In this document: positions 30,784 through 50,748 of the stretch, piece after piece
How positions within the stretch are numbered: position 1 is the first letter of the stretch
How the letters are laid out: every line of letters begins with the position of its first letter
Assembly (NCBI GenBank): GCA_902795045.1
Contig: CADBJU010000016.1
Span: forward strand, 1-52,048
DNA from: Oscillospiraceae bacterium
Lineage (GTDB): Bacteria > Bacillota > Clostridia > Oscillospirales > Oscillospiraceae
DNA: 52,048 nt
Direction: 5' to 3'
Program-made: the position numbers and the translations under genes
Notes under the pieces: model-generated
Told to the model about the DNA's origin: nothing
Seen by the model: only the letters and a program-made list of their open reading frames with translations
Databases searched by the model: none

Positions 30784-32004
30784 ATGGATATACTTGGTGT
30801 CCTGCAAAAGCTGGGTCTTGAATCCGGCTTTGCCTCCTTCTTTCTGACAGACGGCGGTTGGAAAAACCTCGTCATGATCATCATCGCCTTCGTGCTGCTG
30901 TACCTCGGCATCGTGAAGAAATTCGAGCCCCTGCTGCTGGTCGGCATCGCCTTCGGCTGCCTGCTGACAAACCTGAGCTACTTCGTGGGCCAGGGCGCAA
31001 ACGCCCTGTACCACCCCGAGATCTGGGCGGCATTCCTCGATGAGACAAGCCCCGCCTATCACAGCTACGGCGCTGTCATGCGTGAAGCCGGACTTCTCGA
31101 CTTCTTCTACATCGGCGTCAAGGCCGGCATCTACCCGTCCCTCATCTTCATGGGCGTCGGCGCGATGACCGACTTTGGTCCCCTGCTCGCCAATCCCAAG
31201 AGCCTGCTGCTCGGCGCTGCCGCCCAGCTCGGCGTGTTCGTCGCCTTCTTCGGCGCGGTGCTGCTCGGCTTCACCGGCCCCCAGGCTGCCTCCATCGGCA
31301 TCATCGGCGGCGCGGACGGCCCCACCGCCATCTTCCTCACCACGAAGCTGGCTCCGGAGCTTTTAGGCCCCATCGCCATCGCGGCCTACTCCTACATGGC
31401 CCTGATCCCGCTCATCCAGCCCCCGATCATGAAGGCCATGACCACCGACAAGATGCGCAAGGTCAAGATGGTCCAGACCCGCGAGGTGTCGAAGACCGAG
31501 AAGATCGTCTTCCCGATGGTCGTCTCCACCTTCGTTATCCTGCTCCTGCCCTCCACCGCGCCCCTGATCGGCTGCCTGATGCTCGGCAACCTCTTCCGTG
31601 AGTGCGGCGTGACCGACCGTCTGAGCGACACCGTGCAGAACGCGCTGATGAACATCATCACCATCTTCCTCGCCACCTCTGTCGGTGCCACCATGGTCGC
31701 GCAGAACTTCCTGAACTTCAATACCATCAAGATCATCATCCTCGGTCTGATCGCTTTTGCGATCTCCACCGTCGGCGGTCTGCTGGGCGGCCTTGTGATG
31801 TACAAGACCTCCGGCGGTCAGATCAACCCCCTCATCGGCTCTGCCGGTGTGTCTGCTGTGCCGATGGCCGCGCGTGTCTCTCAGGACGTTGGCCGCAAGT
31901 ACAACAAGAATAACTACCTCCTGATGCACGCCATGGGCCCCAACGTGGCCGGCGTCATCGGCTCCGCCATCGCGGCAGGCTTCCTGCTCTCCGTCTTTGG
32001 CTGA
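30784..32004 (+). CDS. oadB: Na+-translocating decarboxylase beta subunit
   Basis: The 406-residue protein has about 11 membrane helices. The signature [42 protein letters not shown] begins near residue 173, with Asp178 at the position of the Na+-coupled Asp of OadB. It decarboxylates carboxybiotin and exports Na+, the energy-yielding step. AAGGAGG precedes the ATG. A terminator follows at 32030-32061, closing the operon oadA-oadG-biotin carrier-oadB. Confidence 0.95.
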
Positions 32005-33444: not shown

Positions 33445-34425
33445 ATGGAACAAGCGAGACGTCCCGAAACCATGGCGCGCATCACCACGCCGGAGCTGGC
33501 CCAGGCCTTTATCGACGAGCAGATCGCCGCCCTCAAGGCCCAGATCGGCGACAAGAAGGTATTGCTGGCCCTGTCCGGCGGTGTGGATTCCTCCGTTGTC
33601 GCGGCCCTGCTCATCAAGGCTGTCGGCAAGCAGCTGGTGTGCGTACACGTCAACCACGGTCTTCTGCGCAAGGGGGAACCCGAGCAGGTCATCGAGGTCT
33701 TCCGCAACCAGATGGACGCTAACCTCATCTATGTCGACGCGGTCGACCGTTTCCTCGATCAGCTCGCCGGCGTTGCCGATCCCGAGGCCAAGCGCAAGAT
33801 CATCGGCAAGCTCTTCATCGATGTCTTCGCCGAGGAAGCAGCCAAGCTCGACGGCATCAGCTTCCTCGCCCAGGGCACCATCTATCCCGACATTCTCGAA
33901 TCCGGCCCCGTCAAGTCCCACCACAATGTGGGCGGCCTGCCCCCCGAGCTGAACTTTGAGCTGGTCGAGCCGGTCAAGTTCCTGTACAAGGATGAGGTCC
34001 GCGTGGTCGGCAAGGCCCTCGGCCTGCCCGACGGCATGGTCTACCGCCAGCCCTTCCCCGGCCCCGGCCTGGGCGTCAGATGCGTCGGCGCGATCACCCG
34101 CGACCGCCTCGAGGCCGTGCGCGAGTCCGATGCGATCCTACGCGAGGAGTTTAAGAAGAACGGCCTGGAGGGCAAGGTGTGGCAGTACTTCACCATTGTC
34201 CCCGACTTTAAATCCACCGGCATCACCGACGGCCTGCGCACCTACGACTGGCCGGTCGTGATCCGTGCCGTCAACACCGTCGACGCTGTCACCGCCGAGG
34301 TAGCCGAGCTGGACTTCAAGCTCATGGCCCACATCGTCGACCGCATCACCCACGAGGTCAAGGGCGTCAACCGCGTCCTTTGGGACCTCACCCCCAAGCC
34401 CACCGGAACTATAGAGTGGGAATAA
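33445..34425 (+). CDS. guaA: GMP synthetase, ATP-pyrophosphatase subunit only
   Basis: The 326-residue protein has the PP-loop SGGVDSS at residues 44-50, then VCVHVNHGLLRKGEPEQVIEVF, SHHNVGGLPPELNFELVEPVKFLYKDEVR, RQPFPGPGLGVRCVGAITRDRLE and the C-terminal dimerisation part ending TGTIEWE. It aminates XMP to GMP. The N-terminal class I glutaminase domain (~190 residues) of ordinary bacterial GuaA is absent, so it must use ammonia or a separate glutaminase subunit not seen here. The last 12 nt (34414-34425) form the attachment-like core described separately. An AAGGAG site precedes the ATG. Confidence 0.94.
   Translation: MEQARRPETMARITTPELAQAFIDEQIAALKAQIGDKKVLLALSGGVDSSVVAALLIKAVGKQLVCVHVNHGLLRKGEPEQVIEVFRNQMDANLIYVDAVDRFLDQLAGVADPEAKRKIIGKLFIDVFAEEAAKLDGISFLAQGTIYPDILESGPVKSHHNVGGLPPELNFELVEPVKFLYKDEVRVVGKALGLPDGMVYRQPFPGPGLGVRCVGAITRDRLEAVRESDAILREEFKKNGLEGKVWQYFTIVPDFKSTGITDGLRTYDWPVVIRAVNTVDAVTAEVAELDFKLMAHIVDRITHEVKGVNRVLWDLTPKPTGTIEWE
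34414..34425 (+). other. Attachment-site core at the 3' end of guaA
   Basis: GAGTGGGAATAA encodes the final Glu-Trp-Glu-stop of GuaA. The identical 12-mer ends each of the two ~230-bp repeats (43727-43738 and 45322-45333). The guaA 3' end is a known integration hotspot of tyrosine-recombinase islands in many bacteria, so I read it as attL. Confidence 0.7.
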
Positions 34426-34446
34426 ATCAATACATGCACGCGCCAG

Positions 34447-34483
34447 CGGCGGGGTAATATTTACCCCGCCAATTTTTTATCAA
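34447..34483 (+). terminator. Terminator after guaA
   Basis: GGCGGGGTAA and TTACCCCGCC form a hairpin (34449-34471) followed by AATTTTTT. Confidence 0.75.
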
Positions 34484-34501
34484 AGGCTTATTCAAAATTC
34501 C

Positions 34502-34539
34502 TGTAAGATCCGCCTGCCGATTGCGAGTATATAAGTGAG
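34502..34539 (+). promoter_or_regulatory. Candidate promoter of sigma unit 1
   Basis: TGTAAGAT (34502) and TATATAAGTGAG (34528-34539) lie upstream of unit 1. The spacing from TGTAAG to GTGAG is 33 nt, identical to unit 3, and a related arrangement precedes unit 4. The shared upstream element is unlike a sigma-A -35, so the sigma factors may drive their own promoters. Confidence 0.45.
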
Positions 34540-34559
34540 GCGGAAAGGAAGTGACGCAT

Positions 34560-35117
34560 TTGGAGGACAGCAAAATCATCGACCTGTTTTTCGCGCGTTC
34601 GGAACAGGCTATCGGCGAGCTGGACAAAGCACACGGCGCGGCTGTGAGAAAAACAGCCGGTAATATTCTGCGGGATCGGCTGGATGTGGAAGAGATCGTA
34701 AACGATACATACCTCGGGGCCTGGAACAGTATTCCGCCTCACCGCCCGGAACTCTTGGTCAGCTTCGTTTGCAGGATCGCCCGCAATCAGGCGGTGAGCA
34801 GGCTGCGCTGGGAGAAAGCCGCGAGGCGAAACAGCGACTTTGATCTGGTGCTGGACGAGCTGACGGAGTTTCTTCCGGCGGACATGGACGTGGAAGAAGA
34901 CTATGCCCAAAAGGAACTGGCAGACGCGATCAACCGATTTCTGTCCACGCTCGGCTATGATGACCGCTATATCTTTGTCCGGCGCTACTGGTTTGCCGAT
35001 CCTGTCAAAGAGATCGCCGCTGCGATGAACACAAGGGAAAACCGTGTCTCCGTGCGCCTTTCCCGCCTCCGCGAGAAATTGCGGAACACTTTACAAAAGG
35101 AGGGCTTTATCGTATGA
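34560..35117 (+). CDS. ECF-type RNA polymerase sigma factor, unit 1
   Basis: The 185-residue protein has sigma region 2 (DRLDVEEIVNDTYLGAWNSIPPHRPELLVSFVCRIARNQAVSRLRW, ~residues 38-83) and region 4 (LGYDDRYIFVRRYWFADPVKEIAAAMNTRENRVSVRLSRLREKLRNTL, ~135-182). Its start at TTG 34560 is chosen by alignment with the three paralogues, which begin (M/V/L)ED, and by the GGAAAGGA site. Stop and next start overlap (ATGA), coupling it to the membrane protein downstream. Its target genes are unknown. Confidence 0.9.
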   Translation: MEDSKIIDLFFARSEQAIGELDKAHGAAVRKTAGNILRDRLDVEEIVNDTYLGAWNSIPPHRPELLVSFVCRIARNQAVSRLRWEKAARRNSDFDLVLDELTEFLPADMDVEEDYAQKELADAINRFLSTLGYDDRYIFVRRYWFADPVKEIAAAMNTRENRVSVRLSRLREKLRNTLQKEGFIV

Positions 35118-35896
35118 ACCGGGAACAGGCATTTGAGACCCTTTCTGAGCTTGATGACAGATTTATTGCCGAAGCGATCCACTATGCGCCCGGAGATTCT
35201 TTGACGCCCCCGGAAAGGATCGTACAGGTGAAAAAAAGAAAGATTTTGGCGATCGCATTGGCAGCGGCACTTATCCTTGCGCTGGGTGCCGCAGCCTCCG
35301 CGCTGACGGGGATTCCCCGTTCCACAGGCACCCACCGTATGCCGAAGACGGCAGAGTATGACACTTTGGAGAAGCTGTCAGATATTGAAAAGGATGTGGG
35401 CTATCCCGTGACAGCGCCCGCACAGTTTTCCAATGGATACATTTTCTCCAAGTTGAGCGTGGACGGCGAGGCCGTGTATGGAGACGGCAATGAGGTTTTG
35501 AAGGAATACTACGGTGTCCATGTAGCTTACACCAAAGCGGACGAGCCGGACATCATTCTCAATCTCACTCCGGTTCTGGAACTGGAAGGCGGCGGCGAAG
35601 CGCCCAAGCCCAGCGAGCGCCGGACAGTGGACAGCGTGACCGTAAACCTCAGCCTTGACCATTACAAGTTTGTCCCGGAAAACTACGATGAGACAGAAGA
35701 TGATCTCGCCCGCAAGGCCGCCGGACACTATTACATCTCCTGGGGTTCGGATGAAATCATGGAATACGACATGGCCTTTGCCGACTTTGTGATGGACGAC
35801 GTAAACTATACCCTGATGGACATGTACGCTTCAGAGGATTCTTTTGACACCCTTGCGCAGATGGCAGAGGAAATTCTCGAAGCGGCACAGAAATAA
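35114..35896 (+). CDS. Membrane partner of sigma factor, unit 1 (putative anti-sigma)
   Basis: The 260-residue protein has a ~37-residue cytoplasmic N-terminus (REQAFETLSELDDRFIAEAIHYAPGD), one membrane helix (KILAIALAAALILALGAAASAL, ~41-62) and a ~195-residue outer domain. A single-pass protein translationally coupled to an ECF sigma factor is the classical anti-sigma arrangement. The short inner segment differs from zinc-binding anti-sigma domains: there is no HxxxCxxC motif. The outer domain (YPVTAPAQFSNGYIFSKL ... KADEPDIILNLTP) has the pattern of DUF4367-like sensor domains. The anti-sigma role is inferred from position only. Confidence 0.75.
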   Translation: MNREQAFETLSELDDRFIAEAIHYAPGDSLTPPERIVQVKKRKILAIALAAALILALGAAASALTGIPRSTGTHRMPKTAEYDTLEKLSDIEKDVGYPVTAPAQFSNGYIFSKLSVDGEAVYGDGNEVLKEYYGVHVAYTKADEPDIILNLTPVLELEGGGEAPKPSERRTVDSVTVNLSLDHYKFVPENYDETEDDLARKAAGHYYISWGSDEIMEYDMAFADFVMDDVNYTLMDMYASEDSFDTLAQMAEEILEAAQK

Positions 35897-35903
35897 AACT
35901 TGC

Positions 35904-35938
35904 GGAGCCTGTTTCCTTTTGGTTGGGAAGCAGGCTCC
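35904..35938 (+). terminator. Terminator of sigma unit 1
   Basis: GGAGCCTGTTTCC and GGAAGCAGGCTCC form the stem. Units 2 and 3 end with related GAGCCT...AGGCTC hairpins, suggesting that whole units including terminators were duplicated. Confidence 0.65.
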
Positions 35939-36056
35939 AAAGCTTTGAGGATGTGCTATAATGCTGTAAAAATTTTTTCTCAAAACTTCATCCATTTCAG
36001 AAATTTCTCCGTTTATATTAGTGTAAGGACCTTACAGAAACGAAGGAGGAAACATC

Positions 36057-36617
36057 GTGGAAGACAGCGGTATTATCGATCTATTCTTTCAACGATCCGA
36101 GACAGCCATAGAGAACACCTCAAAAAAATATGGTTCCTATTTGAGCAGCATTGCCTATCGAATCTTAAACAGTCTGGAGGATTCCGAAGAAGTCGTGGAT
36201 GACACATATATGCGGACATGGAACGCCATTCCACCGACCCGTCCCAAAGTGTTGAAGCATTTCCTTTCCCGCATCACGCGAAATCTTTCCCTTGACAGGC
36301 TTCAATATTATGCGGCAGAAAAGCGAAACGCGGAAACCATTGCAATGCTGGAGGAACTGGAAGCGTGCCTTCCTGATCCTCACGGCAGCGCCGAGTCAGC
36401 ATTGGAAGAAAGCGAGCTCACGGAGATCCTGAACCGCTTTCTCGGAGAGCTTGAGCCCCTGACATGCTGCGTTTTTCTCTCCCGGTATTATTACGCGCAT
36501 ACCGTGAAAGAAGTCTCCGAGCAGTTTGATTTGTCGGAAGGGAAAACAAAGTATTTGCTGACAAAGACCAGATCAGCATTGAGATCCCGACTGATAGAGG
36601 AGGGAATCACCGTATGA
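36057..36617 (+). CDS. ECF-type RNA polymerase sigma factor, unit 2
   Basis: The 186-residue paralogue starts with GTG (EDSGIIDLFFQRSETAIENTSKKYGSYLSSIAYRILN), 8 nt after GAAGGAGG. Region 2 is DSEEVVDDTYMRTWNAIPPTRPKVLKHFLSRITRNLSLDRLQ. Region 4 is CCVFLSRYYYAHTVKEVSEQFDLSEGKTKYLLTKTRSALRSRL. It overlaps the downstream membrane protein by 4 nt. Confidence 0.9.
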   Translation: MEDSGIIDLFFQRSETAIENTSKKYGSYLSSIAYRILNSLEDSEEVVDDTYMRTWNAIPPTRPKVLKHFLSRITRNLSLDRLQYYAAEKRNAETIAMLEELEACLPDPHGSAESALEESELTEILNRFLGELEPLTCCVFLSRYYYAHTVKEVSEQFDLSEGKTKYLLTKTRSALRSRLIEEGITV

Positions 36618-37927
36618 ATGACTTCCGACTGAACAGGGCTTTGACACAGATTGATGAACGCTTTCTTACCATGGTGGACCGGAAAACAATGGAGGTCCAA
36701 GCCATGAAGCAAAAAGCAGTGAGAACAAAGAAAATCTTTAGAATTATCTTGATCGCAGCCGTTATTGCTGCCCTGATGGGCGCGTCTGCATATGCCATCA
36801 GCAGTATTCACACAGCCCGACAGGAGCGGATCGAAGCACAGCTGCAAATACAGGAAAATGCGGTAAGTGGTTACACGGAATACTCAGAGCTTGCACAGAG
36901 TGAGGAACAGGGCGAAGCCGTTCCAAAACCAGAACCGCAAATCCAGCTGATTTCGTCCATACAGCGCGGTGACCATCAGGAAATCTATTTCAGCGTTTCT
37001 CCCGTCCCGGAGGAAATTGCGCATCGCTTTTTCTTCGGAAATATGGAGATCGAGTTCACATATGCTGCAAGCAATGAACCGATTCCGGAGGATAGCTGGT
37101 ATAAGGCCGGTCAAATTGACTCTCCTGTGCATAAAAGCTTCTCAAATCCCGTTCCCTACACAGAAGGTCATGAGGCGGAGCACATGGTCACCAGAAGCTC
37201 CCAGACCGGGTTGCCCGATGAAAACGGTGTCCAGAGCTGGGTAACATTTGAAGTGGTTGACCCGGAGTGGTTCCTGCCGATCCTGATGGAACACTCCTAT
37301 GACCGTGAGACGGAAAGTTTGATGCTGATGTGCTCGGTCTATCGCAAGACCGTCGATTTTTCAAAACCGGTATATTTTTCGGTACGATGCCTGGACGGGC
37401 CTTCGGTCTGGACTGATTTTGACACGCCAATCGAGGATTATACTGCTAATTATTCCCCCGTGTATCTGGAGGACTATGGTACGGTAATACTGGAGGCTTC
37501 CGATACAGCATTCATTTCTCTTGTGCTTTCAGAGCCTATCCACCTTGTTAACCCGGCGGATAACGGGAATCTGAATATCCTTGATATTCGGCTTTCCGCA
37601 AACTGCGTAGAGTGGAAAGTGACCTATGATGGCATGGAGAAGCTTCATAATTTGTCTCCGAATGAAGAGGGATTTCATGAAGGTTTTGAAAAACAGCTCC
37701 AGTGGATCGGCTTCCAAGATGAGATCCTGTCAAGCGCATATCTGACCTTCGAGGACGGGAGTACGCAGCAGTTGACACCCAGCGCAGCTGCGCCGTATGA
37801 AAACGGTGTTGTGACACTCACATCAAACTGGAATGCGACCATTGATATCAGCAAAGTTAAGTCCATAACCGTAATGGGAACGACATATTCGTTCCCACAG
37901 CTTAGAACGGAATCCGTTTCACCGTGA
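36614..37927 (+). CDS. Membrane partner of sigma factor, unit 2 (putative anti-sigma)
   Basis: The 437-residue protein has a ~38-residue inner segment, one membrane helix (KIFRIILIAAVIAALMGASAYAI, ~37-60) and a ~375-residue outer part. It aligns by eye with the unit 4 partner. After the helix both have SxH(T/I)xRQ ... L(Q/K)I(Q/E)EN, then LISSIQRGDHQEIYFSVSPVPEEIAHRF against LLSAVNDGTEQRIYVDVSPVEKENIARF. Both end in NGVV-x-L ... W-x-(A/S)-x-I(D/N)I. The outer domain resembles DUF4179-like anti-sigma proteins of Clostridia. Regulation of its sigma factor is inferred from coupling. Confidence 0.75.
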   Translation: MNDFRLNRALTQIDERFLTMVDRKTMEVQAMKQKAVRTKKIFRIILIAAVIAALMGASAYAISSIHTARQERIEAQLQIQENAVSGYTEYSELAQSEEQGEAVPKPEPQIQLISSIQRGDHQEIYFSVSPVPEEIAHRFFFGNMEIEFTYAASNEPIPEDSWYKAGQIDSPVHKSFSNPVPYTEGHEAEHMVTRSSQTGLPDENGVQSWVTFEVVDPEWFLPILMEHSYDRETESLMLMCSVYRKTVDFSKPVYFSVRCLDGPSVWTDFDTPIEDYTANYSPVYLEDYGTVILEASDTAFISLVLSEPIHLVNPADNGNLNILDIRLSANCVEWKVTYDGMEKLHNLSPNEEGFHEGFEKQLQWIGFQDEILSSAYLTFEDGSTQQLTPSAAAPYENGVVTLTSNWNATIDISKVKSITVMGTTYSFPQLRTESVSP

Positions 37928-37963
37928 AACGGATTAAGAGCGCCGGATATGTTAGGTGACACT

Positions 37964-37996
37964 GAGCCTGTTTCTCTCTTACAGAGGATCAGGCTC
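37964..37996 (+). terminator. Hairpin after sigma unit 2
   Basis: GAGCCTGTTTCTC and GAGGATCAGGCTC form a stem related to those after units 1 and 3. Another hairpin (AATCCGTTTCAC/GTGAAACGGATT, 37911-37935) overlaps the stop codon. Confidence 0.55.
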
Positions 37997-38027
37997 TGTT
38001 GCCCTTCTAAAAATTTTTCTTTTTTTC

Positions 38028-38065
38028 TGTAAGATTTTCCTGCAAAACGCTTTTATTAGGGTGAG
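38028..38065 (+). promoter_or_regulatory. Candidate promoter of sigma unit 3
   Basis: CTGTAAGATTTTCCTGC matches CTGTAAGATCCGCCTGC of unit 1 at 14 of 17 positions by my count. TTATTAGGGTGAG follows at the same 33-nt offset. Confidence 0.45.
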
Positions 38066-38090
38066 ACAAAAACAGAAAGGAGGCAGTGGA

Positions 38091-38648
38091 TTGGAGGACG
38101 CAAAAATTGTGGAGCTGTACTGGCAGCGCTCTGAGGACGCGATCCCGGAGACCGCCGCAAAGTTCGGTCCCTATTGTCACACCATTGCTTACAACATTCT
38201 GTCGGATACGCAGGACACGGAGGAATGTGTCAACGACACATGGCTCGGCGCGTGGAACTCCATGCCGTCGAACCGCCCGAAAGTGCTTGCGCCGTATCTG
38301 GCAAAACTCACCCGGTGGCTTTCCCTTACCCGGCTTCGTGAACAGCACGCCCTGCGCCGCGGAGGCGGAGAAACAGCGCTGGTCTTGGACGAGCTTTCTG
38401 AGGTCGTCCCTGATGGGACAGATTTAGAGAAGCGTGTGGAGTTTAAAGAGCTCAGCGAAGCCCTGCGGCGTTTCCTCGCTGGTCTTGACGAGACGGAGGC
38501 GCAGGTTTTCCTTGCTCGGTGCTGGTATATGGCCGGGGTAAAGGAGATTGCCGAGAAGTTTGGTTTCACGCCGGGCAAGGTCAGCACCATGCTGCACCGC
38601 ACCCGGAAAAAGCTGCAGGATTATCTGAAGGAGGAAGGATTATGCTGA
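38091..38648 (+). CDS. ECF-type RNA polymerase sigma factor, unit 3
   Basis: The 185-residue paralogue starts at TTG 38091, 7 nt after AAAGGAGG, in agreement with the other units (LEDAKIVELYWQRSEDAIPETAAKFG). Region 2 is DTEECVNDTWLGAWNSMPSNRPKVLAPYLAKLTRWLSLTRLR. Region 4 is AQVFLARCWYMAGVKEIAEKFGFTPGKVSTMLHRTRKKLQDYL. The stop lies inside the next gene, 7 nt past its ATG. Confidence 0.9.
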   Translation: MEDAKIVELYWQRSEDAIPETAAKFGPYCHTIAYNILSDTQDTEECVNDTWLGAWNSMPSNRPKVLAPYLAKLTRWLSLTRLREQHALRRGGGETALVLDELSEVVPDGTDLEKRVEFKELSEALRRFLAGLDETEAQVFLARCWYMAGVKEIAEKFGFTPGKVSTMLHRTRKKLQDYLKEEGLC

Positions 38649-40795
38649 ACGAAGAAATGCTCCTCTTTGCGTTGAACGACACAGAAGATGCGCTTCTGGA
38701 GCGCACGCGCAAGGCTTTGGGCTATAAGCTCCGCGTGAGGAAACGCAGCCCAGGAAAAATCATCCGCATTGTGCTGATTGCGGCAGTGCTTTCGGCTCTG
38801 CTGATCGGCGCTGCCTATGCGGCCGGGCTTGTCGGCCTCGGCAACATGCGGGCCGGTCAGCTTTTTGGCACGAAGATGCTGAGCATGGAGGGCCTGAGTG
38901 ACAGCCCGGAGGGGCAGGCGCTCTCTGAGTGGCTCAGCTACTACGACGTCCACCGCAGCGATCCCTTCGACGCACAGGAGGCCATTGACCTCATGGACGA
39001 CTACGGCCCCTACGGTGTGACCACCAAAGAGATGGCGGATGAGATCGACGCCCTGTGCGGCAAATACGGGCTGAAACGCCTGGGAGTCTTGAGCACCCCG
39101 CCCGATGAGCGGAGCTTCTATGAAGCGGCGGGCGTCGGCAAGCTCACGCGCGGGAACGAGGCTTTTGAAAACGATTATGGCGGAGGCTATGTCTACACAA
39201 GCGGCAGCTTCCAGTTTGACGGGACGCTGTTCTCGACGGGACCCCTCTCAGTCACCGGTGTGAACACCGGCGACAGCTCCCCCGAAGGGGGAGCCAAGCT
39301 TGTGATCCCGTATCAGTTCCGTCGGGCGATGAAGGGCGTGCTGGGCTATGTGACCATGAACGCGGGCGATCCCAATGACTATACCGAGTGGCAGTACACG
39401 ACAAAGGACAGCCAGACGCTCACAATCTCCGACTCTGCACACGGAGCTTTTCTGATCCTCGACAGGCCGGACAGCTTTGTGGTGGTGTCCGTCGCCAAAT
39501 CCGGCTGGGCCGATTCTTTCAACGACGGCAGGCTTGACGGTCTGGGGGATAAGATCGTGAGCTTTGCGCTCAGTCATGAAGACCTCGAGGCCATTGCCGA
39601 CTCCTTCAACTGGGCGGCGCTGGACAATCCCACCCTCGGCATGGATGGGGAGTTTACCTATCATCAGTACAGCAGTGAGAGCGCCATCAATCGCCTCACG
39701 AATCCTGACATCGACCTGAGCATGATTCCAGAGAGCCGGGCGAATCTGAAGCCCACGATCTCCGCCGTTTATGAACAGCAGATCGCGCCCTATATCCGGG
39801 ACTTTCAGCTTGTGGATTACAGCATTGAATGGGGCAAGGCGGAGACTGGCTGGATCAGCTTCACCGGCACGCCCATCAAGCCCATCAGTTGGCGCACGGT
39901 GCCGAGCGACAAGGGCACTGTCTACTGCCGCAGCGTCTGTGTCACGAGAGATGAAAACGGCCTGCCGCTGGCACTGGAAAGCTTCGACATGCTGCCGATT
40001 CCCAAAAAAGATATGTCAAAGAACATCGGCACAGAGGCTAACCCGGACTGGATCTGGCTTAAAAACGAGGCAAAAGTTTTGGCATCTGCATCCCTGTATG
40101 TCCAGCAGGACGGAAAGACCTATACTATCTCCGATCCTGCCGCTCTTGAAGATTTGACGCTGATGCTGAAAGACAGCGACATCGATTCCTTTGACGCCGG
40201 GGATCCGCGCTTTAATCCTCTCTACCTCACGTACACCGACGGGAGCCGCGACCTTGTCTTTACTGCGGCCAGCGGCGCCAACGCATTTCGACAGTACGGC
40301 CAGTGGCAGGGTTACCAGTTTGGCAGAACGATCTTTGACCTGTTTGGCGTTCCGCTTGAGGCCAAAGGGTACACGAATCATGACGGCATCCTCACCGCGC
40401 ACATGGAGTCCCCGGATCAGAGCATGCTGAAATGGATCGAGATGGACTTTGCGGAGAATGGATATCTGATTGAGCGCAGGATCATGTCGGATCAAGTTCG
40501 CCAGATGCGATATGAATACGATGAAAACCACAACTGTGTCCGGGAGACATGGTGGGACGGCGGTGTTATGACCAACGAGATCGTCAGCAGCTATTCCGAC
40601 GATGGCCGCATTCTCCATAGCGAGACCCACACGGGCAATATGTGGAGCGTGGTGGATTATGAGTACGACGAGTTTGGCCGCCTGACGGCGGAGATCCATC
40701 GCGACAATGACGACGCACCCGGTTTTACCGGCGGCAATATCTATTACAGCTATGACGCGGACGGCAACTGCCGCCGCAAAATGGGGTGGGAATAA
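38642..40795 (+). CDS. Large membrane partner of sigma factor with C-terminal YD-like repeats, unit 3
   Basis: The 717-residue protein has a ~40-residue inner segment (MLNEEMLLFALNDTEDALLERTRKALGYK), a membrane helix (IIRIVLIAAVLSALLIGAAYAAGL, ~42-65) and a ~650-residue outer region. The last ~100 residues contain four YD-type units (YEYDENHNCVRET, YSDDGRILHSET, YEYDEFGRLTAE, YSYDADGNCRRK), as in RHS/wall-associated proteins. An SSPEGGAK stretch at about residues 212-219 is encoded by a dispersed palindromic repeat (39272-39298). The start at 38642 follows GAGGAAGG. Coupling to the sigma gene suggests an anti-sigma sensor, but the YD end is unusual. The coding sequence ends in an attachment-like GGGTGGGAATAA. 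Confidence 0.75.
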   Translation: MLNEEMLLFALNDTEDALLERTRKALGYKLRVRKRSPGKIIRIVLIAAVLSALLIGAAYAAGLVGLGNMRAGQLFGTKMLSMEGLSDSPEGQALSEWLSYYDVHRSDPFDAQEAIDLMDDYGPYGVTTKEMADEIDALCGKYGLKRLGVLSTPPDERSFYEAAGVGKLTRGNEAFENDYGGGYVYTSGSFQFDGTLFSTGPLSVTGVNTGDSSPEGGAKLVIPYQFRRAMKGVLGYVTMNAGDPNDYTEWQYTTKDSQTLTISDSAHGAFLILDRPDSFVVVSVAKSGWADSFNDGRLDGLGDKIVSFALSHEDLEAIADSFNWAALDNPTLGMDGEFTYHQYSSESAINRLTNPDIDLSMIPESRANLKPTISAVYEQQIAPYIRDFQLVDYSIEWGKAETGWISFTGTPIKPISWRTVPSDKGTVYCRSVCVTRDENGLPLALESFDMLPIPKKDMSKNIGTEANPDWIWLKNEAKVLASASLYVQQDGKTYTISDPAALEDLTLMLKDSDIDSFDAGDPRFNPLYLTYTDGSRDLVFTAASGANAFRQYGQWQGYQFGRTIFDLFGVPLEAKGYTNHDGILTAHMESPDQSMLKWIEMDFAENGYLIERRIMSDQVRQMRYEYDENHNCVRETWWDGGVMTNEIVSSYSDDGRILHSETHTGNMWSVVDYEYDEFGRLTAEIHRDNDDAPGFTGGNIYYSYDADGNCRRKMGWE
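39272..39298 (-). repeat. Family 3 palindrome inside a coding sequence
   Basis: Read on the minus strand, CTTGGCTCCCCCT and GGGGGAGCTGTC flank a 2-3 nt loop. The sequence equals 17185-17211 apart from the loop. It stays in frame with the host gene and encodes GDSSPEGGAK. Confidence 0.7.
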
Positions 40796-40803
40796 AAGAT
40801 AGC

Positions 40804-40836
40804 GGAGCCTACTTCTCGCGAAAAGAGATGTAGGCT
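40804..40836 (+). terminator. Terminator of sigma unit 3
   Basis: GGAGCCTACTTCTC and GAGATGTAGGCTC form the stem, related to the hairpins after units 1 and 2. Confidence 0.6.
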
Positions 40837-41100
40837 CTGTATTATATGTAATAATTTCAGACAGAGATCAAATAGTGGAAGCTGTGAACAGTAATTCGAT
40901 GTATTATACATAAGTCACTCAAAATCCTGAATTGTCGTCTTGGATTGTTTCGCGTGGAAAACTATTGCGCTTGTCTGGAATATGGTGTAAACTATTATTA
41001 TCTTCTCGATTCGAATGAAACCAGATTTAAGGAATTATTTTGACATTCTCCATGTGTTATAGTAAGAAAGGGTTACTAGCACAACATCAGGGAGGTAGTT
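40837..41100. other. AT-rich gap before the ATPase gene
   Basis: Base composition drops sharply here and stays low to about 43500. I see no gene. TTGACA at 41040 and TATAGT at 41058 are only 12 nt apart, too close for a standard promoter. Confidence 0.4.
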
Positions 41101-42546
41101 ATGGATATCACAATTAACAATATTGGCATTGTTTCAAACTCTACTCTAAAGATAGAGGGGCTTACAGTTATTACAGGGAAAAACAATTCTGGCAAGACAA
41201 CTGTTGGGAAAGTGCTGTATTCTATCATTGATGCTGTTAGCAATTTAACAAGCAAAGCGAAGCAAGATAGAGCTTTCTATATAAGAAAAAGGTTAGAAGA
41301 TGTTACTGATATCGTTGAATTGTTTCGTTTCTACCAATTTCGTCATTCCGAGGAAGAAGAGTCTATTCTTGCTACGTATCCTGCATTTAAATCGCTGATA
41401 TCAAATGAGACATGGAGAGACCAGTCGGCAGAGGATATCGAAGGATTTGCCAAGGAGTTATTATCTGAATTAAAAAGGTTTGATATCTCTCCATTTGAAA
41501 AGAGCGAGGCGTTTGAGCTTTATAGAAGACTGCTTTCTGCAAAAGATACACGAAGTTCAACTATTGTAGCAAATTTTAATGATCAAAAGGCCAAGGCAAT
41601 CGGACTGCTAGAAAGCATGTTTGAACAGATTAATAAAGATATTGGGCTTGTCGACTATGCAAGGGAGAGCATCAATCAAACATTACGCGTGGAGTTTTCA
41701 AATCAGATCCAACCAATATCTCACCAAAACGAAGAATCAACTGTAAGATTCTTTGATAAAGATACTGTTTTTATAGATTTTAGCGTCGGTAACGATAAAG
41801 TAATTAATAATAAAAAGCCAGTTTTCTTTTCCTGCCCATTCAAGAATACTTTTCTTGTTGACAATCCGTTTGTACTTGATGCTTCCACTGCAAGACGCGC
41901 ATTTAATTATTCTGCTAAACTTGCGACTGAATCCTTTCTTAATTCAAACCGTATTCTCTCACATAGTGATAAACTTAGAAATATTTTGAGAAATTCTTCA
42001 CGTCCCTCGGTATTAGAACAAACGGTTCTTGATCAAACCTTAGCTGCTATCAAACGGCAGATAGATGAGATTATTCCAGGAACTTTTGAATTTTCACCTA
42101 GTGGAGAATACTATATTCAAGACGGGAAAAAACTTAAAGTGGCAAATCTTGCCACGGGTTCTAAAATGATTTCCATTATAAAGATACTTTTAGAGATGGG
42201 TAGAATCAATAATGAAACCATGCTTATTTTAGATGAGCCGGAAGCCCATTTACATCCCGAATGGCAAAATGCGTTTGCTGAGGTTATAGCTTTGTTGGTT
42301 AAAGAATTAGGTGTGAAAATATTGTTAACAACACACAGTCCTAATTTTATGTTAGCAATCGATGCATACATGAGAAAATATAAAATTGAAAACCAAACAA
42401 ATTTCTACCAGACTGATTTCCTCGATAATGGCATGGTGACATATCATTGTGTCAATGACGATTTGGGAATTATCTATGAAGATTTTTTGCAGTACCTTTC
42501 TAAAATGAAGATGCTACGTAGTCAGTATTTTAGAGGTATAGAGTAA
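41101..42546 (+). CDS. AAA/ABC-type ATPase of an ATPase-nuclease pair (putative defence)
   Basis: The 481-residue protein has Walker A GKNNSGKT at residues 26-33, a signature-like LATGSKM near 345-352, Walker B MLILDEPEAHLHPEW with catalytic Asp378-Glu379, and an H-loop TTHSP with His412. This is the AAA_15/AAA_21 (SMC/OLD-like) layout with a helical insertion between the Walker motifs. No TOPRIM domain follows. Similar ATPases drive two-gene phage-defence or DNA-repair systems (Septu, Gabija, PARIS, AbiL types) but this pairing matches none that I recognise. Codon use is AT-rich, unlike its neighbours, so it was probably acquired. GGGAGG precedes the ATG. Confidence 0.82.
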   Translation: MDITINNIGIVSNSTLKIEGLTVITGKNNSGKTTVGKVLYSIIDAVSNLTSKAKQDRAFYIRKRLEDVTDIVELFRFYQFRHSEEEESILATYPAFKSLISNETWRDQSAEDIEGFAKELLSELKRFDISPFEKSEAFELYRRLLSAKDTRSSTIVANFNDQKAKAIGLLESMFEQINKDIGLVDYARESINQTLRVEFSNQIQPISHQNEESTVRFFDKDTVFIDFSVGNDKVINNKKPVFFSCPFKNTFLVDNPFVLDASTARRAFNYSAKLATESFLNSNRILSHSDKLRNILRNSSRPSVLEQTVLDQTLAAIKRQIDEIIPGTFEFSPSGEYYIQDGKKLKVANLATGSKMISIIKILLEMGRINNETMLILDEPEAHLHPEWQNAFAEVIALLVKELGVKILLTTHSPNFMLAIDAYMRKYKIENQTNFYQTDFLDNGMVTYHCVNDDLGIIYEDFLQYLSKMKMLRSQYFRGIE

Positions 42547-42547
42547 T

Positions 42548-43225
42548 ATGCTTACAGAACAAATAAAAGAATATGCGGAAGATAATTGGGGATCTTTTTT
42601 AAAATCACTCACAGAAATTTCAAAAAATCACAATTCTGGAGATTCTCTTGTCTATAACGAAAATGAGATTTACAGTTTTGATGATATTAGCAAAGCTCTT
42701 TATCCAGAGCAGAACGAACCCGCATCCGTAGATGGACTGGTTATTGGGGACAATTATTTGGAACTAATTGAATTCAAGGGCGGTTTTAAACAAAAGATAA
42801 CAAAGGATTCTTTTGACGCGGAAAAAGGGCGATGTCAGATTTCTGGTGATGTTTGTCAAGATTATTGGTCAATCTTTTTTGAGTACCAAAAGAGAAAAAT
42901 CCGAGAGTTGGTCGTGTCAATTAGATTTAAAGCACTGGAAAGCTATATAACCATAGAAAAGCAAGTCTTTCCTAGATGTTCTTTCGACGAAAGGAAAGCT
43001 TTAAAAGTTATCCTAACAGTTGTGATTGATGAAACTGGTGTAGACAGCATGGAAGATACACTTTCGGAATTAGCAGGAAAAAAAAGTGATGATAATTGTT
43101 ATGATTCTATTAGAAAAGCTTTGTCTGGATTGAAAAACAGGGAAGACTATACCGGAATGCCATATTTTTACAATCAGATCAATGTCATTTCTATACAAGA
43201 CTTTATGAATCGTTCAACGACATAA
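42548..43225 (+). CDS. PD-(D/E)XK nuclease-like partner of the ATPase
   Basis: The 225-residue protein begins 1 nt after the ATPase stop. SVDGLVIGDNYLELIEFKGGF provides Asp62 and Glu75-x-Lys77, the spacing of a PD-(D/E)XK core (D-x12-E-x-K) on two strands with a hydrophobic pattern. An upstream Glu at 57 could complete the site. The rest (YWSIFFEYQKRKIRELVVSIRFKALESYI ... KALKVILTVVIDE) is strand-rich. I do not recognise the family. As the small partner of an ATPase in an AT-rich island, it may be the effector of a defence system; activity is not shown. Confidence 0.65.
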   Translation: MLTEQIKEYAEDNWGSFLKSLTEISKNHNSGDSLVYNENEIYSFDDISKALYPEQNEPASVDGLVIGDNYLELIEFKGGFKQKITKDSFDAEKGRCQISGDVCQDYWSIFFEYQKRKIRELVVSIRFKALESYITIEKQVFPRCSFDERKALKVILTVVIDETGVDSMEDTLSELAGKKSDDNCYDSIRKALSGLKNREDYTGMPYFYNQINVISIQDFMNRSTT

Positions 43226-43476
43226 TTACCCACTATTCAATATTGCGCAGGCAAAGACCATAATATCCTTTCATTAACCAGGAGTGTTCCCCATCTTTTT
43301 ACATCTGTTTTACCTATATAGTGCAAAACCATGAAACACTTTGATCTTTGACTGACTGTACCGATATTTACGAGCAAGTACCCCTGAGTGTGAACGCTAA
43401 CAGGCAATGGCCTAATATTGTATAAACGTTTTTACATATATTAGTTAAGTCAAGGTTGTGGGGATTCGTGTAACTA
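43226..43476. other. AT-rich gap after the ATPase-nuclease pair
   Basis: No coding sequence, clear terminator or repeat is visible between the nuclease-like gene and the promoter at 43477. Confidence 0.4.
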
Positions 43477-43505
43477 TTGAAAATCAGACGCTTCTGTGCT
43501 ATAGT
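43477..43505 (+). promoter_or_regulatory. Near-consensus promoter abutting direct repeat A
   Basis: TTGAAA, a 17-nt spacer and TATAGT end 3 nt before repeat A begins, so transcription would start at the first bases of the repeat. No protein is encoded directly behind it, so the repeat could be transcribed as an RNA. Confidence 0.6.
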
Positions 43506-43508
43506 AAT

Positions 43509-43738
43509 CACATCAAAAAGCCTATATCAAACTGGCAAAGCATTCCTGTTAATCGTCCAAGCCACTGTAAACAGCCCCAACAATTCGGGCGTGTGATAGC
43601 AGCTTTGATAGCTTTTTGATAGCAAAAGTCCGTAGACCCCATGGGTTGAGGATAATGGGAATCAAACGGAGTCACGTCGAGTCAAATCTCCTAAACAAAA
43701 GCAGTTAAAGTCGGGATTTGCTTGGCGAGTGGGAATAA
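43509..43738 (+). repeat. Long direct repeat A ending in the guaA attachment core
   Basis: The 230-bp sequence recurs at 45104-45333 with about 17 differences by my count. It contains three TGATAGC words spaced 12 and 11 nt apart (43594, 43606, 43617), like arm-type integrase sites. It ends in GAGTGGGAATAA (43727-43738), identical to the guaA 3' end. I read it as the right end of an integrated element (attR). Confidence 0.85.
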
Positions 43739-43786
43739 GACAGAGTTTGTCTTCGATTGGTTCAGATTATCTCAAAACACTTGAAA

Positions 43787-43820
43787 CAGCAGGCATTCTA
43801 CGGAGTGCCTGCTGTTCGCT
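43787..43820 (+). terminator. Terminator after repeat A
   Basis: CAGCAGGCATTC and GAGTGCCTGCTG form a stem with one G-T pair, followed by TTCGCTTT. Confidence 0.65.
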
Positions 43821-43946
43821 TTAATCAGCAATGATAGAATGATATCGAAATCCGGTAAGAACTACAGCAAAACGTTGCTTTCTTCCTTGCGTTTTTGCCT
43901 TTTTGTCGTATAATAACGGTAATCAAAAGAAGGTGAGGTCTTGCGG

Positions 43947-44993
43947 ATGACGGATCGAATTCAGCCCATCGATCAGGACATCAAGCTCGTCGTTCATGAG
44001 ATCGGCGATCTACTGACCGCTGCCCGGAATAATGTTGCCCGGCAGGTGAACAATGAGCTTCTGGGCACCTACTGGAATATCGGCCGCATTATTGCCGAAT
44101 ATGAGCAGACGGTGCCGGAGCGGGCCGACTACGGAAAGCAGACGCTCAAGGAGCTGTCAAAGGCACTGACCGCTGAATTCGGCAAGGGCTTTTCGCGCGC
44201 AAATCTGTATAACATGCGGCAGTTTTATCTGTCCTATGAAAAAGTCCAGTCAGTGACTGGAAAATTGACATGGACGCATTACTGCGAATTGTTGACCATC
44301 TCCGACCCGGACAAACGCAGCTTCTACGAAAAAGAAGCAGTCAATTCCAATTGGTCTGTGCGCGAGCTTAAACGCCAGATCGACAGCTCTTTGTTCGAGC
44401 GCCTGCTGCTTTCCCGTGGGGATGCAAACAAGGAGCAGGTGCTGGCGCTGGCAGAGAAAGGAATTGAGATCGCTGAACCGTCTGATCTCATCCGCGACCC
44501 GTATGTGTTTGAATTCCTCGGCATCCCGGAGGATAAGCCCATGCTGGAGAGCGATCTGGAACACGCGTTGGTACAGCAGATCGAAAAATTTCTGCTGGAG
44601 CTGGGGCGGGGATTTATGTTTGTCGGCACACAGCAGCGGGTGACGATCAACAACACCCACTACTATGTGGATATGGTGTTCTACAACAAGATCCTCCGCG
44701 CATATGTGCTGATTGAGCTGAAGACCACAAAACTGACGCCGGAAGCCGCAGGGCAGATCAATCTGTATCTGAACTACTACGCCTCCGAGGTCAACGATCC
44801 GGACGACAATCCTCCGATTGGGATCATCCTGTGCACCGAGAAGGACAGCATCACGGCGGAATACGCATTGGGTGGTCTATCAAACAACATCTTTGCCTCG
44901 CGTTATGTGCTGTATATGCCGAACAAGGAGCAACTGATCGCCCAGGTAGAAGCGGTTTTGAAAAAGCGGAAAGAGAACGGGAATGAATCCTGA
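43947..44993 (+). CDS. DUF1016 (YhcG-type) PD-(D/E)XK nuclease family protein
   Basis: The 348-residue protein has an N-terminal DUF1016 domain (VARQVNNELLGTYWNIGRIIAEYEQ ... YGKQTLKELSKALTAEFGKGFSRANLYNMRQFYLSYE) and a C-terminal nuclease domain. YYVDMVFYNKILRAYVLIELKTTKLTPEAAGQINLYLNYY supplies the D ... E-x-K catalytic set. Proteins of this family often lie in defence islands beside type I restriction genes; their role is not settled. An ATG at 43947 or TTG at 43941 fits the AAGGTGAGG site. The gene sits alone between direct repeats A and B, as the cargo of a ~1.6-kb cassette. Confidence 0.88.
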   Translation: MTDRIQPIDQDIKLVVHEIGDLLTAARNNVARQVNNELLGTYWNIGRIIAEYEQTVPERADYGKQTLKELSKALTAEFGKGFSRANLYNMRQFYLSYEKVQSVTGKLTWTHYCELLTISDPDKRSFYEKEAVNSNWSVRELKRQIDSSLFERLLLSRGDANKEQVLALAEKGIEIAEPSDLIRDPYVFEFLGIPEDKPMLESDLEHALVQQIEKFLLELGRGFMFVGTQQRVTINNTHYYVDMVFYNKILRAYVLIELKTTKLTPEAAGQINLYLNYYASEVNDPDDNPPIGIILCTEKDSITAEYALGGLSNNIFASRYVLYMPNKEQLIAQVEAVLKKRKENGNES

Positions 44994-45103
44994 TTGCGAA
45001 TGAGTATGGGTGGCGGAGAGCATTTTCCGCCACCCGTTCTTTATGCTCGCAAAATTCTTTCCTCTTATAGTGACACTTTGCCCGAAAAATGGATTTATAT
45101 AAC

Positions 45104-45333
45104 CACATCAAAAAGCCTGTTTCAAACTGGTAAAGCATTCCTGTTAATCGTCCAAGCCACTGTAAACAGCTCCAACAAACCGGACCTGTGATAGCGTCGT
45201 TGATAGCTTTTTGATAGCAAAAGTCCGTAGACCCCATGGGTTGAGGATAATGGGAGTCAATTGGAGTCACGTCGAGACAAATCCCCTAAACAAAAGCAGT
45301 TAAAGTCGGGGTTTGCTTGGCGAGTGGGAATAA
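45104..45333 (+). repeat. Long direct repeat B ending in the guaA attachment core
   Basis: It is about 93% identical to repeat A by my count. It has the same three TGATAGC words (45189, 45201, 45212) and the same terminal GAGTGGGAATAA (45322-45333). It is followed by a GGCGGGG...CCCCGCC hairpin that resembles the guaA terminator. Confidence 0.85.
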
Positions 45334-45370
45334 ACAGCGATCAGAGCAATCAGAAAATGGTTATAACAAC

Positions 45371-45405
45371 GGCGGGGAGCATTCCCCGCCGCAAGTCATT
45401 TTAAA
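45371..45405 (+). terminator. Hairpin downstream of repeat B
   Basis: GGCGGGGAGC and ATTCCCCGCC form a stem followed by TCATTTT. Its likeness to the guaA terminator suggests it was the original guaA terminator before insertion. Confidence 0.55.
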
Positions 45406-45458: not shown

Positions 45459-45484
45459 AGCTCTTGAAAAGAAGGAGGTTCCGT

Positions 45485-46051
45485 ATGGAAGACAGAGAAA
45501 TCGTTGATCTGTACTGGCAGCGTTCCGATCGGGCCATAGCGGAAACGGATCAGAAATACGGCAGATACTGCCGCACGATTGCCATGAATATCTGCGGGTC
45601 AAACGAGGACGCGGAGGAATGCGTGAACGACACCTGGTTTCGCGCGTGGAACCGTATGCCCTCCGAGCGCCCGACGGTCTTATCGGCATTTCTCGGCTGT
45701 ATCACAAGAAATCTCGCCATCAATACGATCAAGGCGAAAAACAGAATCAAGCGCGGCAGAGGCGAAGCGTCTCTTGCCCTGGAGGAACTCAGCGAGTGCA
45801 TCCCCGACGGAAGAAGTCCCGAAAAAGTCCTGGAAGAAAAAGAACTGGAAAAGCTGATTGGGCGTTTCACAGCAGGCTTAAAGGAGACTGACAGAATGAT
45901 TTTTGTCCTGCGCTACTGGTATCTCGTGCCTGTTGCGGACATTGCCGAGAAACTGCATTGCAGTCAGGGAAAGATCAAAAGCAGCCTGTTTCGCACACGA
46001 AAGAAGCTGAGGGAAGCATTACAGAAGGAGGGCTTATATTGGACGAACTGA
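45485..46051 (+). CDS. ECF-type RNA polymerase sigma factor, unit 4
   Basis: The 188-residue paralogue starts MEDREIVDLYWQRSDRAIAETDQKYGRYCRTIAMNICG after an AAGGAGG site. Region 2 is DAEECVNDTWFRAWNRMPSERPTVLSAFLGCITRNLAINTIK. Region 4 is RMIFVLRYWYLVPVADIAEKLHCSQGKIKSSLFRTRKKLREAL. It is closest to unit 3 in the first 50 residues. Its end overlaps the partner gene by 13 nt. Confidence 0.9.
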   Translation: MEDREIVDLYWQRSDRAIAETDQKYGRYCRTIAMNICGSNEDAEECVNDTWFRAWNRMPSERPTVLSAFLGCITRNLAINTIKAKNRIKRGRGEASLALEELSECIPDGRSPEKVLEEKELEKLIGRFTAGLKETDRMIFVLRYWYLVPVADIAEKLHCSQGKIKSSLFRTRKKLREALQKEGLYWTN

Positions 46052-47142
46052 CACTTCTGCGCGCTATGAACGGCATTCATGAGGAGGATGTAGTCATGGC
46101 CGGAAAGCTTTATTTTAACGAAAACACAGTACGCAAAACATCAAAACGCATATTCACGCTCGCGCTTGCGGCGGCGCTTCTGCTGGCGCTGGGTGCCGCG
46201 GCGTATGCGGTATGGAGTGTCCATATCTCCAGACAGCAGGATCTGAGAACCGATTTGAAGATCGAGGAAAACAATGCAAGCAGCTACATGGAATACGATG
46301 TGACGCAGCAGGAGAAGGCCGGAAGCGCGGCAAGCCTTATTCTGCTCTCCGCTGTCAACGACGGGACTGAGCAGCGGATCTATGTCGATGTTTCCCCTGT
46401 GGAAAAAGAAAACATCGCCCGTTTTCCCGCTGATGTCCGCTTTGCCTGGAGCATTGCCGGCACGGAGATCGGCGGATTTGCAGGTCCCCAGCTTCCGGTG
46501 TCACTTTCCCTGTCGGGAGACGAGGCGATCCGAAATGCCGTGCTGGATTACGCATACGATGAAGAAACGCAGACCCTGACCCTGCAATGCTATGCGGATG
46601 TAAAGTTTATTGAAAAGGCAATGGCTGATCTGGGCACGGACAGTGTCCCGCTTCAAGTCCACATGATCGTCGGTGAAAATGATTCCCATACCTTCGGTCC
46701 TGTTCCCTTCAAACTGACGGATGAACAGACAAGGAGCTTTGACTTCGGCCCTGCGCAATACCACGATAAAGAGCTTGATAAGACGATCGAGATCGTCGGG
46801 CTGGAGCTGACGCCGTTCAGCGCGGTCTGGAAGGTGCGCTATGAGGACGCAGCGTCCTTCCACACGCCGGGTGCAGATCAAGCGGCTTACAGGCCGTGGA
46901 GTATCCTGGAGGACAGGGTCTGCATCGACGCAAAGCTCATCTTCTCCGACGGCTCGGCGTTTTCCACCGGTGGCGCACTGACCTGCCCCTTTGAAAACGG
47001 CGTGGTCAATCTCCACTGTGGTTGGGGCAGCGCGATCAATATCGACGACGTACAGCGCATCGAGCTGGGGGATCTTGTGCTCTGGGAGCTAAAAGCGGCT
47101 GACGAGGAAATGCCCCGTCAGGCGCAGGATCAACAGCAATAG
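46039..47142 (+). CDS. Membrane partner of sigma factor, unit 4 (putative anti-sigma)
   Basis: The 367-residue protein starts at TTG 46039, 7 nt after GGAGG (DELTLLRAMNGIHEEDVVMAGKLYF). It has one membrane helix (RIFTLALAAALLLALGAAAYAVWSV, ~38-62). The outer domain is homologous to unit 2, sharing the post-helix RQ...IEEN segment and the (Y/F)-V-S-P-V motif. It lacks the YD repeats of unit 3. The function is inferred from coupling, as for the other units. Confidence 0.75.
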   Translation: MDELTLLRAMNGIHEEDVVMAGKLYFNENTVRKTSKRIFTLALAAALLLALGAAAYAVWSVHISRQQDLRTDLKIEENNASSYMEYDVTQQEKAGSAASLILLSAVNDGTEQRIYVDVSPVEKENIARFPADVRFAWSIAGTEIGGFAGPQLPVSLSLSGDEAIRNAVLDYAYDEETQTLTLQCYADVKFIEKAMADLGTDSVPLQVHMIVGENDSHTFGPVPFKLTDEQTRSFDFGPAQYHDKELDKTIEIVGLELTPFSAVWKVRYEDAASFHTPGADQAAYRPWSILEDRVCIDAKLIFSDGSAFSTGGALTCPFENGVVNLHCGWGSAINIDDVQRIELGDLVLWELKAADEEMPRQAQDQQQ

Positions 47143-48254: not shown

Positions 48255-48313
48255 CCGGCTTCCGCTGCGCTCCGCAGATGCACGGAACACCGGGCAGACA
48301 TAAGGATAAATAC

Positions 48314-50332: not shown

Positions 50333-50433
50333 AATGATAACTCCTCTCCAATCCGTATTCGGAATGCTGTCCTCATTTTATCATGCCTGTCAAGAGCGAG
50401 AACGGTCGAGAAAGAATCTTAAGCATTCTTTAT

Positions 50434-50462
50434 TTGCATATTCTTCTGTCCTTTGCTATACT
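50434..50462 (+). promoter_or_regulatory. Promoter of the second double-glycine peptide
   Basis: TTGCAT, a 17-nt spacer and TATACT end 46 nt before the ATG. Confidence 0.7.
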
Positions 50463-50508
50463 GGGTACAACCAGAGAAAGAAAACATTTCATCAAGGGGG
50501 AAACCACA

Positions 50509-50748
50509 ATGGCAGAAATCGAAAAATTGAAAGACGGCGAGCTTGACACGGTCAGCGGCGGCAAGAAATACAACATCGGCAACATTCCGGTGCCTGTACG
50601 TCCCTATCCCAACGGCCCCATCCTCTACACCCTGACCATGGGCGACTACCTGGTCACCGACGGACAGGTCATCTACCGCGACGGCATCCAGTGGTGCCAT
50701 GTCTTCACCGCCTACGGCGAAGGCTGCGTCGACGGCCGCTATCTGTAA
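50509..50748 (+). CDS. Double-glycine leader peptide
   Basis: The 79-residue peptide has a leader MAEIEKLKDGELDTVSGG with Gly17-Gly18, matching the ELxxVxGG consensus cleaved by C39 peptidases or used by RiPP enzymes. The core (KKYNIGNIPVPVRPYPNGPILYTLTMGDYLVTDGQVIYRDGIQWCHVFTAYGEGCVDGRYL) has two Cys, many Tyr and Gly, and no lanthipeptide-like Ser/Thr-Cys clustering. AAGGGGG lies before the ATG, and there is a promoter and a shared terminator. No transporter or modification enzyme is adjacent. A bacteriocin, pheromone or exported peptide is possible. Confidence 0.75.
   Translation: MAEIEKLKDGELDTVSGGKKYNIGNIPVPVRPYPNGPILYTLTMGDYLVTDGQVIYRDGIQWCHVFTAYGEGCVDGRYL

Follow-up and report, generated by a model that had tools for sequence, protein, structure and literature searches.

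Two probable tandem non-autonomous elements at the 3′ end of guaA in an Oscillospiraceae bacterium

Described systems and the guaA locus

Cis-mobilizable elements (CIMEs), as characterized in two reports, lack integration and transfer genes, keep their att sites and stand in tandem at the end of a single housekeeping gene; the classical ones span 1.2–13 kb, carry cargo and may outnumber intact elements (PMC5704250, PMC7563491). Here we describe a candidate pair of such elements, segments A (34426–43738, 9313 bp) and B (43739–45333, 1595 bp), directly downstream of guaA in an Oscillospiraceae bacterium (assembly GCA_902795045.1, contig CADBJU010000016.1). The whole stretch of DNA that was analyzed, positions 1–52,048 of that contig, is referred to as the window, and all of its features named below lie on the forward strand. 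We conclude that A and B are very probably two tandem, non-autonomous (CIME-like) integrated elements at the guaA 3′ end, most likely stranded there. They differ from the described CIMEs in their guaA target, in their setting in a rumen/gut Clostridia genus, and in left arms that are poor or absent.

An earlier reading of the window (the original prediction) had named the guaA 3′ end as a known island hotspot, and the published accounts agree. Streptococcal integrative and conjugative elements (ICEs) and integrative and mobilizable elements (IMEs) sit at the guaA end with a direct repeat of the gene end (PMC4701971, PMC5357655), Tn5801-like islands at guaA have 11-bp repeats (PMC4844618), and ATE-1 is a further guaA-targeting element (PMC5704250). 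GIsul2 targets the guaA site GAGTGGGA and has an integrase that, in addition to its own element, mobilizes a second neighboring unit bounded by att sites (PMC9376610); the targeted site is identical to the first 8 nt of the core repeated in the window. Like A and B, all of these target the gene end and have a repeat from the gene's 3′ end; unlike A and B, they carry their own tyrosine integrase. A close parallel is provided by the Dehalococcoides ssrA islands, which are in tandem with 3′-end repeats between them, some without an integration module and called possible CIMEs, but their target is ssrA and their recombinases are of the serine type (PMC3146451). Targeting of guaA, CIMEs and tandem accretion are already known, and the locus is ordinary in kind and well supported. 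The literature that could be searched, mostly outside subscription journals and accessible in part, held no description of the module described below or of guaA element arrays in this group.

The two segments are delimited by three exact copies of a 12-nt core, GAGTGGGAATAA (mean of 0 in 100 shuffles), with no fourth copy elsewhere in the 2.75-Mb genome. Core 1 (34414–34425) encodes E-W-E-stop and forms the last 12 nt of the target gene guaA (33445–34425, ATP-pyrophosphatase part), on the attL side. Core 2 (43727–43738) and core 3 (45322–45333; attR, host side) each end a 234-nt repeat. These repeats, the right-end modules of A (43505–43738, attR side) and B (45100–45333), share 92% identity at a spacing of 1595 nt. 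Each includes three TGATAGC repeats, at 43594, 43606 and 43617 in A and at 45189, 45201 and 45212 in B, that by their sequence resemble integrase arm sites. The original prediction had correctly identified the triple core and the ~230-bp repeats that end in it, and had described the islands as nested; they are in tandem. It had also ascribed att-like ends to both segments, which holds for the right arms and cores. On the left, A has no arm pair and that of B (43832–43846) is damaged. Two intact TGATAGC copies occupy the same place in relatives G044, G050 and G006, and because these counterparts retain the pair, the left arm pair of B is taken to have decayed. As had been predicted, neither A nor B contains an integrase ORF, and no conjugation or mobilization family was found in a Pfam scan of nine A, B and flank proteins, some small ORFs lying outside that scan.

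Junctions, modules and an autonomous element in relatives

Break-points in related genomes coincide with the core. Of 27 guaA loci of the genus with 60 or more bases beyond, 26 lose homology to the window at 34423–34426 and the other at 34434; two of the 29 relatives had too little sequence and were dropped. The original prediction had proposed a search for empty-site junctions, and these are present. guaA is joined directly to B in G044, G050, G057 and G045 (in the last with B homology from 43784; L044 and G044, equal in length, were taken as one contig and counted once). In G049, it is joined to the block of sigma unit 4 from the downstream flank; about 70 extra bases intervene there before homology returns at 45370, 36 nt past core 3. 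In G027, whose guaA protein is 99% identical, the counterpart of 45334 and beyond starts immediately after the right end and core of another island. Variation also affects the downstream flank: in G054, about 22 nt separate a module with a degenerate core from the counterpart of 47161, which leaves no sigma unit 4.

Right cores differ from the guaA end of their own genome as host alleles differ. The guaA end and right core are GAGTGGGAATAA and GAATACGAATAA in G155, and GAATTTGAGTGA and GAATTTGAATAA in G018, while the stops of guaA and right core are TAA versus TGA in G036 and TGA versus TAA in G046. These differences would fit strand exchange near the core start, with the insertion replacing the last codons of guaA.

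G047 carries a 31.1-kb element that runs from a guaA-type core to a module and core, with no further guaA-type core between. Its order is a TGATAGC pair (209/220), an HTH gene, an integrase, a NikA-like protein, an AAA_25 protein, a Mob_Pre relaxase (Mob_Pre/MobV-like), cargo, and a TGATAGC triple (31132–31155), with the right core at 31276. The tyrosine integrase contains Arm-DNA-bind_4, Phage_int_SAM_3 and Phage_integrase domains, and the module is 88% identical to that of A. Segments A and B, bounded by direct-repeat cores, have this right module in common with the G047 IME; the G047-type integrase and relaxase are absent from both, no remnant of an IME backbone was found in either, and the genome of the window has no match to the G047 integrase above 25–41% local identity. 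At a threshold of at least 90% identity, the integrase occurs in six of 102 genus genomes (G047, G086, G062, G077, G078, G074), its gene starting 1.25–1.4 kb downstream of guaA in all five that have guaA on the contig. Break-points at the core, alternative junctions and the G047 element together support the proposal that elements integrated site-specifically and in series at the 3′ end of guaA.

Among 149 relatives representing 44 genera, a DNA search located the module in 25, every one of them in the genus of the window. A profile built from sequence alone on its 3′ 139 nt matched 42 of the 102 genus genomes at E <= 0.1. The strong sites (E <= 3.1e-17) number 31 in 29 genomes, and both the cargo before and the DNA after the module vary among them. 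Most strong sites (27 of 31) end in a 12-mer encoding E-[W/Y/F]-E-stop, the guaA end, a count that depends partly on the search since the profile includes the core. Weaker sites have a core of the same kind with other repeats (TGACAAC, TGATAAC, TGGCAAC), and seemingly represent other classes. Carriers of the G047-type integrase and of the module overlap in part: of the 29 genomes with the module, four belong to the six carriers, 25 lack this integrase and 20 lack any family member at E <= 1e-60, many of these genomes being incomplete. G078, with a guaA that diverges at 29% of third positions, matches the right 145 nt of the module of A at 99.3% identity. Outside the genus, partial matches of 74% were found, one each, in a Subdoligranulum variabile record filed as a plasmid (OY725880.1, L289) and a record labelled as a bacteriophage (MT837327.1, L288). 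In both human-gut records, the module stands beside a guaA-type core and restriction-modification genes, the cargo of the two comprising type I restriction-modification genes and a C5 methylase with Vsr. An exact 47-nt piece of the module gave no match in viral_contigs. We infer a genus-wide right-end attachment module, the putative attR arm of a guaA-targeting IME family.

For eleven elements of this class, both ends could be placed on a single contig piece; one of them (G047) contains the integrase. The nearest upstream guaA-type 12-mer served as the left border, a rule that favors short elements; it is the guaA end in some and merely a core-like 12-mer in G006, G067 and G157. The left pair TGATAGC-N4-TGATAGC is present without mismatch in five of the eleven (G157, G006, G071, G047, G050), compared with 0 of 300 background windows at up to 2 mismatches, and the left ends of A and B, at 5 mismatches, are at background level. 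Four integrase-less elements (G157, G006, G071, G050) have both arm sets, and are concrete elements suited to ask about movement in trans. A DUF1016 gene is present in five of the eleven (B, G157, G006, G050, G067). Extra cargo includes McrB/McrC in G050, a methylase-specificity-HSDR_N fusion in G157, a Fic protein in G018 and sigma units in others; two of the cargo proteins scanned had no Pfam match. The main interest of the locus lies in these small integrase-less cassettes, several with defense genes, that share the ends of one integrase class.

Proposed mechanism and alternatives

In the proposed mechanism, the tyrosine integrase of an IME would bind the TGATAGC repeats via its Arm-DNA-binding domain and exchange strands within the core. 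Insertion would restore the guaA reading frame while replacing its last codons, the old codons going to the right end; new elements would enter at the guaA core, and older ones would be pushed downstream. Because A and B have no such integrase or relaxase of their own, they would have been placed or moved only by IME help in trans or by accretion (cis-mobilization). With no left arm pair detectable in A and a damaged one in B, the two segments are now most likely stranded. The original prediction had left the islands as either stranded or mobilized in trans, a fair statement with no cognate integrase in the genome; the state of the left arms favors the former.

Several observations weigh against the interpretation of A and B as tandem integrated elements. 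The left end of A is without an arm pair, and six of the eleven delimited elements, A and B included, have no clean left pair. Four of the 31 strong module sites (in G045, G054 and G073, and one of two in G155) lack a guaA-type core. Among a wider set of 80 guaA loci, from which the cores of a second guaA were excluded and in which many contigs end early, only four (L048, L052, L089, L097) have a further near-exact core downstream. G044 has the gene of B after guaA, yet no right core within the next 10 kb. In three relatives, sigma units of the types found in A lie elsewhere than at guaA (1-2-3-4 contiguous in G073, 1 beside 4 in G057, 1 beside 3 in G049), so that A may not be a single transposed unit. 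The missing integrase is weak evidence because the genomes are mostly incomplete assemblies. Neither excision, a circle nor transfer has been observed.

Each integrase-less element could instead be an independently decayed IME, with neither a cassette lineage nor movement in trans, an explanation to which we assign somewhat less than an even chance. It agrees with the origin published for CIMEs (PMC5704250, PMC7563491), and with G152, where the TGATAGC pair and HTH gene of a left end persist and no integrase gene was seen downstream. DUF1016 cassettes, in contrast, recur in different neighborhoods with similar left ends, and their divergence is flat relative to that of guaA. Across 21 pairs from seven genomes (G086, with seven further pairs, was excluded for a faulty guaA codon map), third-position identity of DUF1016 stays within 0.67–0.81 while that of guaA ranges over 0.45–0.86, and the DUF1016 value is above the guaA value in 20 of 21 pairs, the exception being G067–G044. 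This flat divergence fits horizontal movement and does not indicate the mechanism. Repeated transfer would fit this pattern, but decay first and helper-driven transfer later would be compatible with it as well.

We raise tentatively, as a possibility on the unlikely side, that the genus shares a pool of small integrase-less cassettes (~1–9 kb among the delimited elements) that have the ends of one integrase class and move in trans through chance encounters with guaA-specific IME integrases. If this is so, the cassettes would carry defense (DUF1016, McrBC, restriction-modification), regulatory (extracytoplasmic function [ECF] sigma) and other cargo. Such a system would be integron-like, with the integrase borrowed and the end of an essential gene as the entry site, and each insertion would rewrite the last codons and the terminator of guaA. 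Integron gene cassettes are small cargo units with a shared recombination module at the end, collected serially at one site. Unlike theirs, the module at guaA combines duplex arm-like repeats with a guaA core; against the integron integrase model TIGR02249 (cut-off 265), the G047 integrase reaches 32 bits, and no IntI-type integrase is present in A or B.

It appears unlikely that A and B themselves are still mobile in trans, an incoming G047-type integrase excising and reinserting them via intact right arms and core. Their right modules are intact and closely alike, the near-identity of the right part of the A module in G078 persists despite guaA divergence, integrase-less elements with both arm sets exist, and the GIsul2 integrase moves a neighboring unit bearing its att sites (PMC9376610). 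Set against this, an intact left arm pair is missing from both segments, and a cognate integrase from the genome.

That the arrangement arose mainly by homologous recombination or duplication among sigma units and modules, and not by site-specific insertion, is improbable. The sigma units are repetitive, run contiguously away from guaA in G073, and are accompanied by two modules that could pair; however, the break-points fall at the core in all but one of the loci compared, in other species the same core and module enclose unrelated cargo, and G047 combines matched arm sites with an integrase. An assembly artefact from the 234-bp repeats, which are 92% alike in a genome of 56 contigs, is hardly credible, as single junctions were found independently in other genomes.

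Cargo, flanks and further observations

Integration of A and B in tandem would make the locus an illustration of the serial build-up of defense and regulatory cargo at a housekeeping-gene end. Segment A holds three sigma units, an AT-rich ATPase block and the module, and is probably composite. The GC content is 0.530 in its sigma part, 0.352 in the ATPase block (40841–43504) and 0.558 in the window. Sigma unit 1 (34551–35896) consists of an ECF sigma gene (34551–35117) and a membrane-anchored partner (35114–35896), and is followed by sigma units 2 (36057–37927) and 3 (38088–40795). The three sigma units had been predicted as cargo, and their ECF sigma proteins were identified by Pfam (unit 1), NCBIfam (units 1 and 2) and homology (unit 3). 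Sigma units 1–3 can be aligned to a G073 block that continues without a break into a unit of the sigma-4 type. Close paralogues in the genome of the window are the four sigma units of this locus, the only two other matches having 33% and 28% identity.

The partner gene of sigma unit 3 ends in GGGTGGGAATAA, a near-copy of the core at 40784–40795. This near-core was considered as a third attL and rejected; the sigma-3 partner ends likewise in G073 and G049 (GGCTGGGAATAA, GGCTGGGAGTAA), with a similar stem-loop after it. An ORF resembling a phage-type integrase by eye (G073:C34, L280, 8778–9956) ends about 100 nt before the sigma block of G073.

The ATPase block had been described as an ATPase-nuclease pair. 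The ATPase (41101–42546) is confirmed as an AAA_21/AAA_15 protein by Pfam (OLD/AbiEii-like), with broad PADLOC matches, of which PD-T4-4_A is the best. The nuclease label of its partner (42548–43225) is unproven, as this protein had no match in Pfam, PADLOC or NCBIfam, nor among PDB chains by phmmer. The DUF1016 gene of segment B, also named in the original prediction, was borne out: its product (43941–44993) is a DUF1016/YhcG protein by Pfam and a candidate defense protein in PADLOC (PDC-S02).

Stem-loops had been noted after guaA and after the last core, and both were observed: a terminator-like one 3′ of guaA (34448–34470, by terminator scan and fold) and one after core 3 (about 45370–45391, by fold). 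A further stem-loop, which had not been listed, lies after core 2 in the terminator-like left end of B (about 43785–43816), and is also found in the left ends of G044, G050 and G057. The three folds have z values of -3.2, -4.7 and -4.4, and a plain fold of the 3′ part of the module gave -2.2. The terminator scan itself reported, of the three, that after guaA, and terminator-like sites in the region are not enriched (11 versus 13.9 in shuffles).

Just beyond core 3, the flank begins with sigma unit 4 (45464–47142), the unit found directly after guaA in G049. The PAP2 and FGGY-kinase genes farther downstream (47301–49903) are variable, the FGGY kinase being present in 14 of 102 genomes at E <= 1e-150. 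A small ORF at 50383–50748 has, by eye, a leader-like ...TVSGG motif.

In many genomes of the genus, guaA is present twice, once as an ATPase-only type of 326 residues and once as a full-length type, and both serve as target (the full-length type in G060, G018 and G071). Two tyrosine recombinase genes on opposite strands (in G000:C2, 89978–90487 on + and 100185–100691 on -), about 6–14 kb apart, occur in many of the genus genomes among those listed. In G087:C66 (L160), a TetM/TetW/TetO/TetS-family gene, cut by the contig end (NCBIfam 1085 bits versus a cut-off of 1100), precedes a second-group module and guaA-type core, after which a further integrase-bearing element follows; a Tet-type gene beside a related module means that the same end type may bear on the spread of resistance genes in gut bacteria. 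A 999-bp integrase-less element after guaA in G155:C15 (L230) encodes a 101-residue protein with a GG-leader-like motif by eye, and a gene similar to that for this protein follows the core in G013 (L155).

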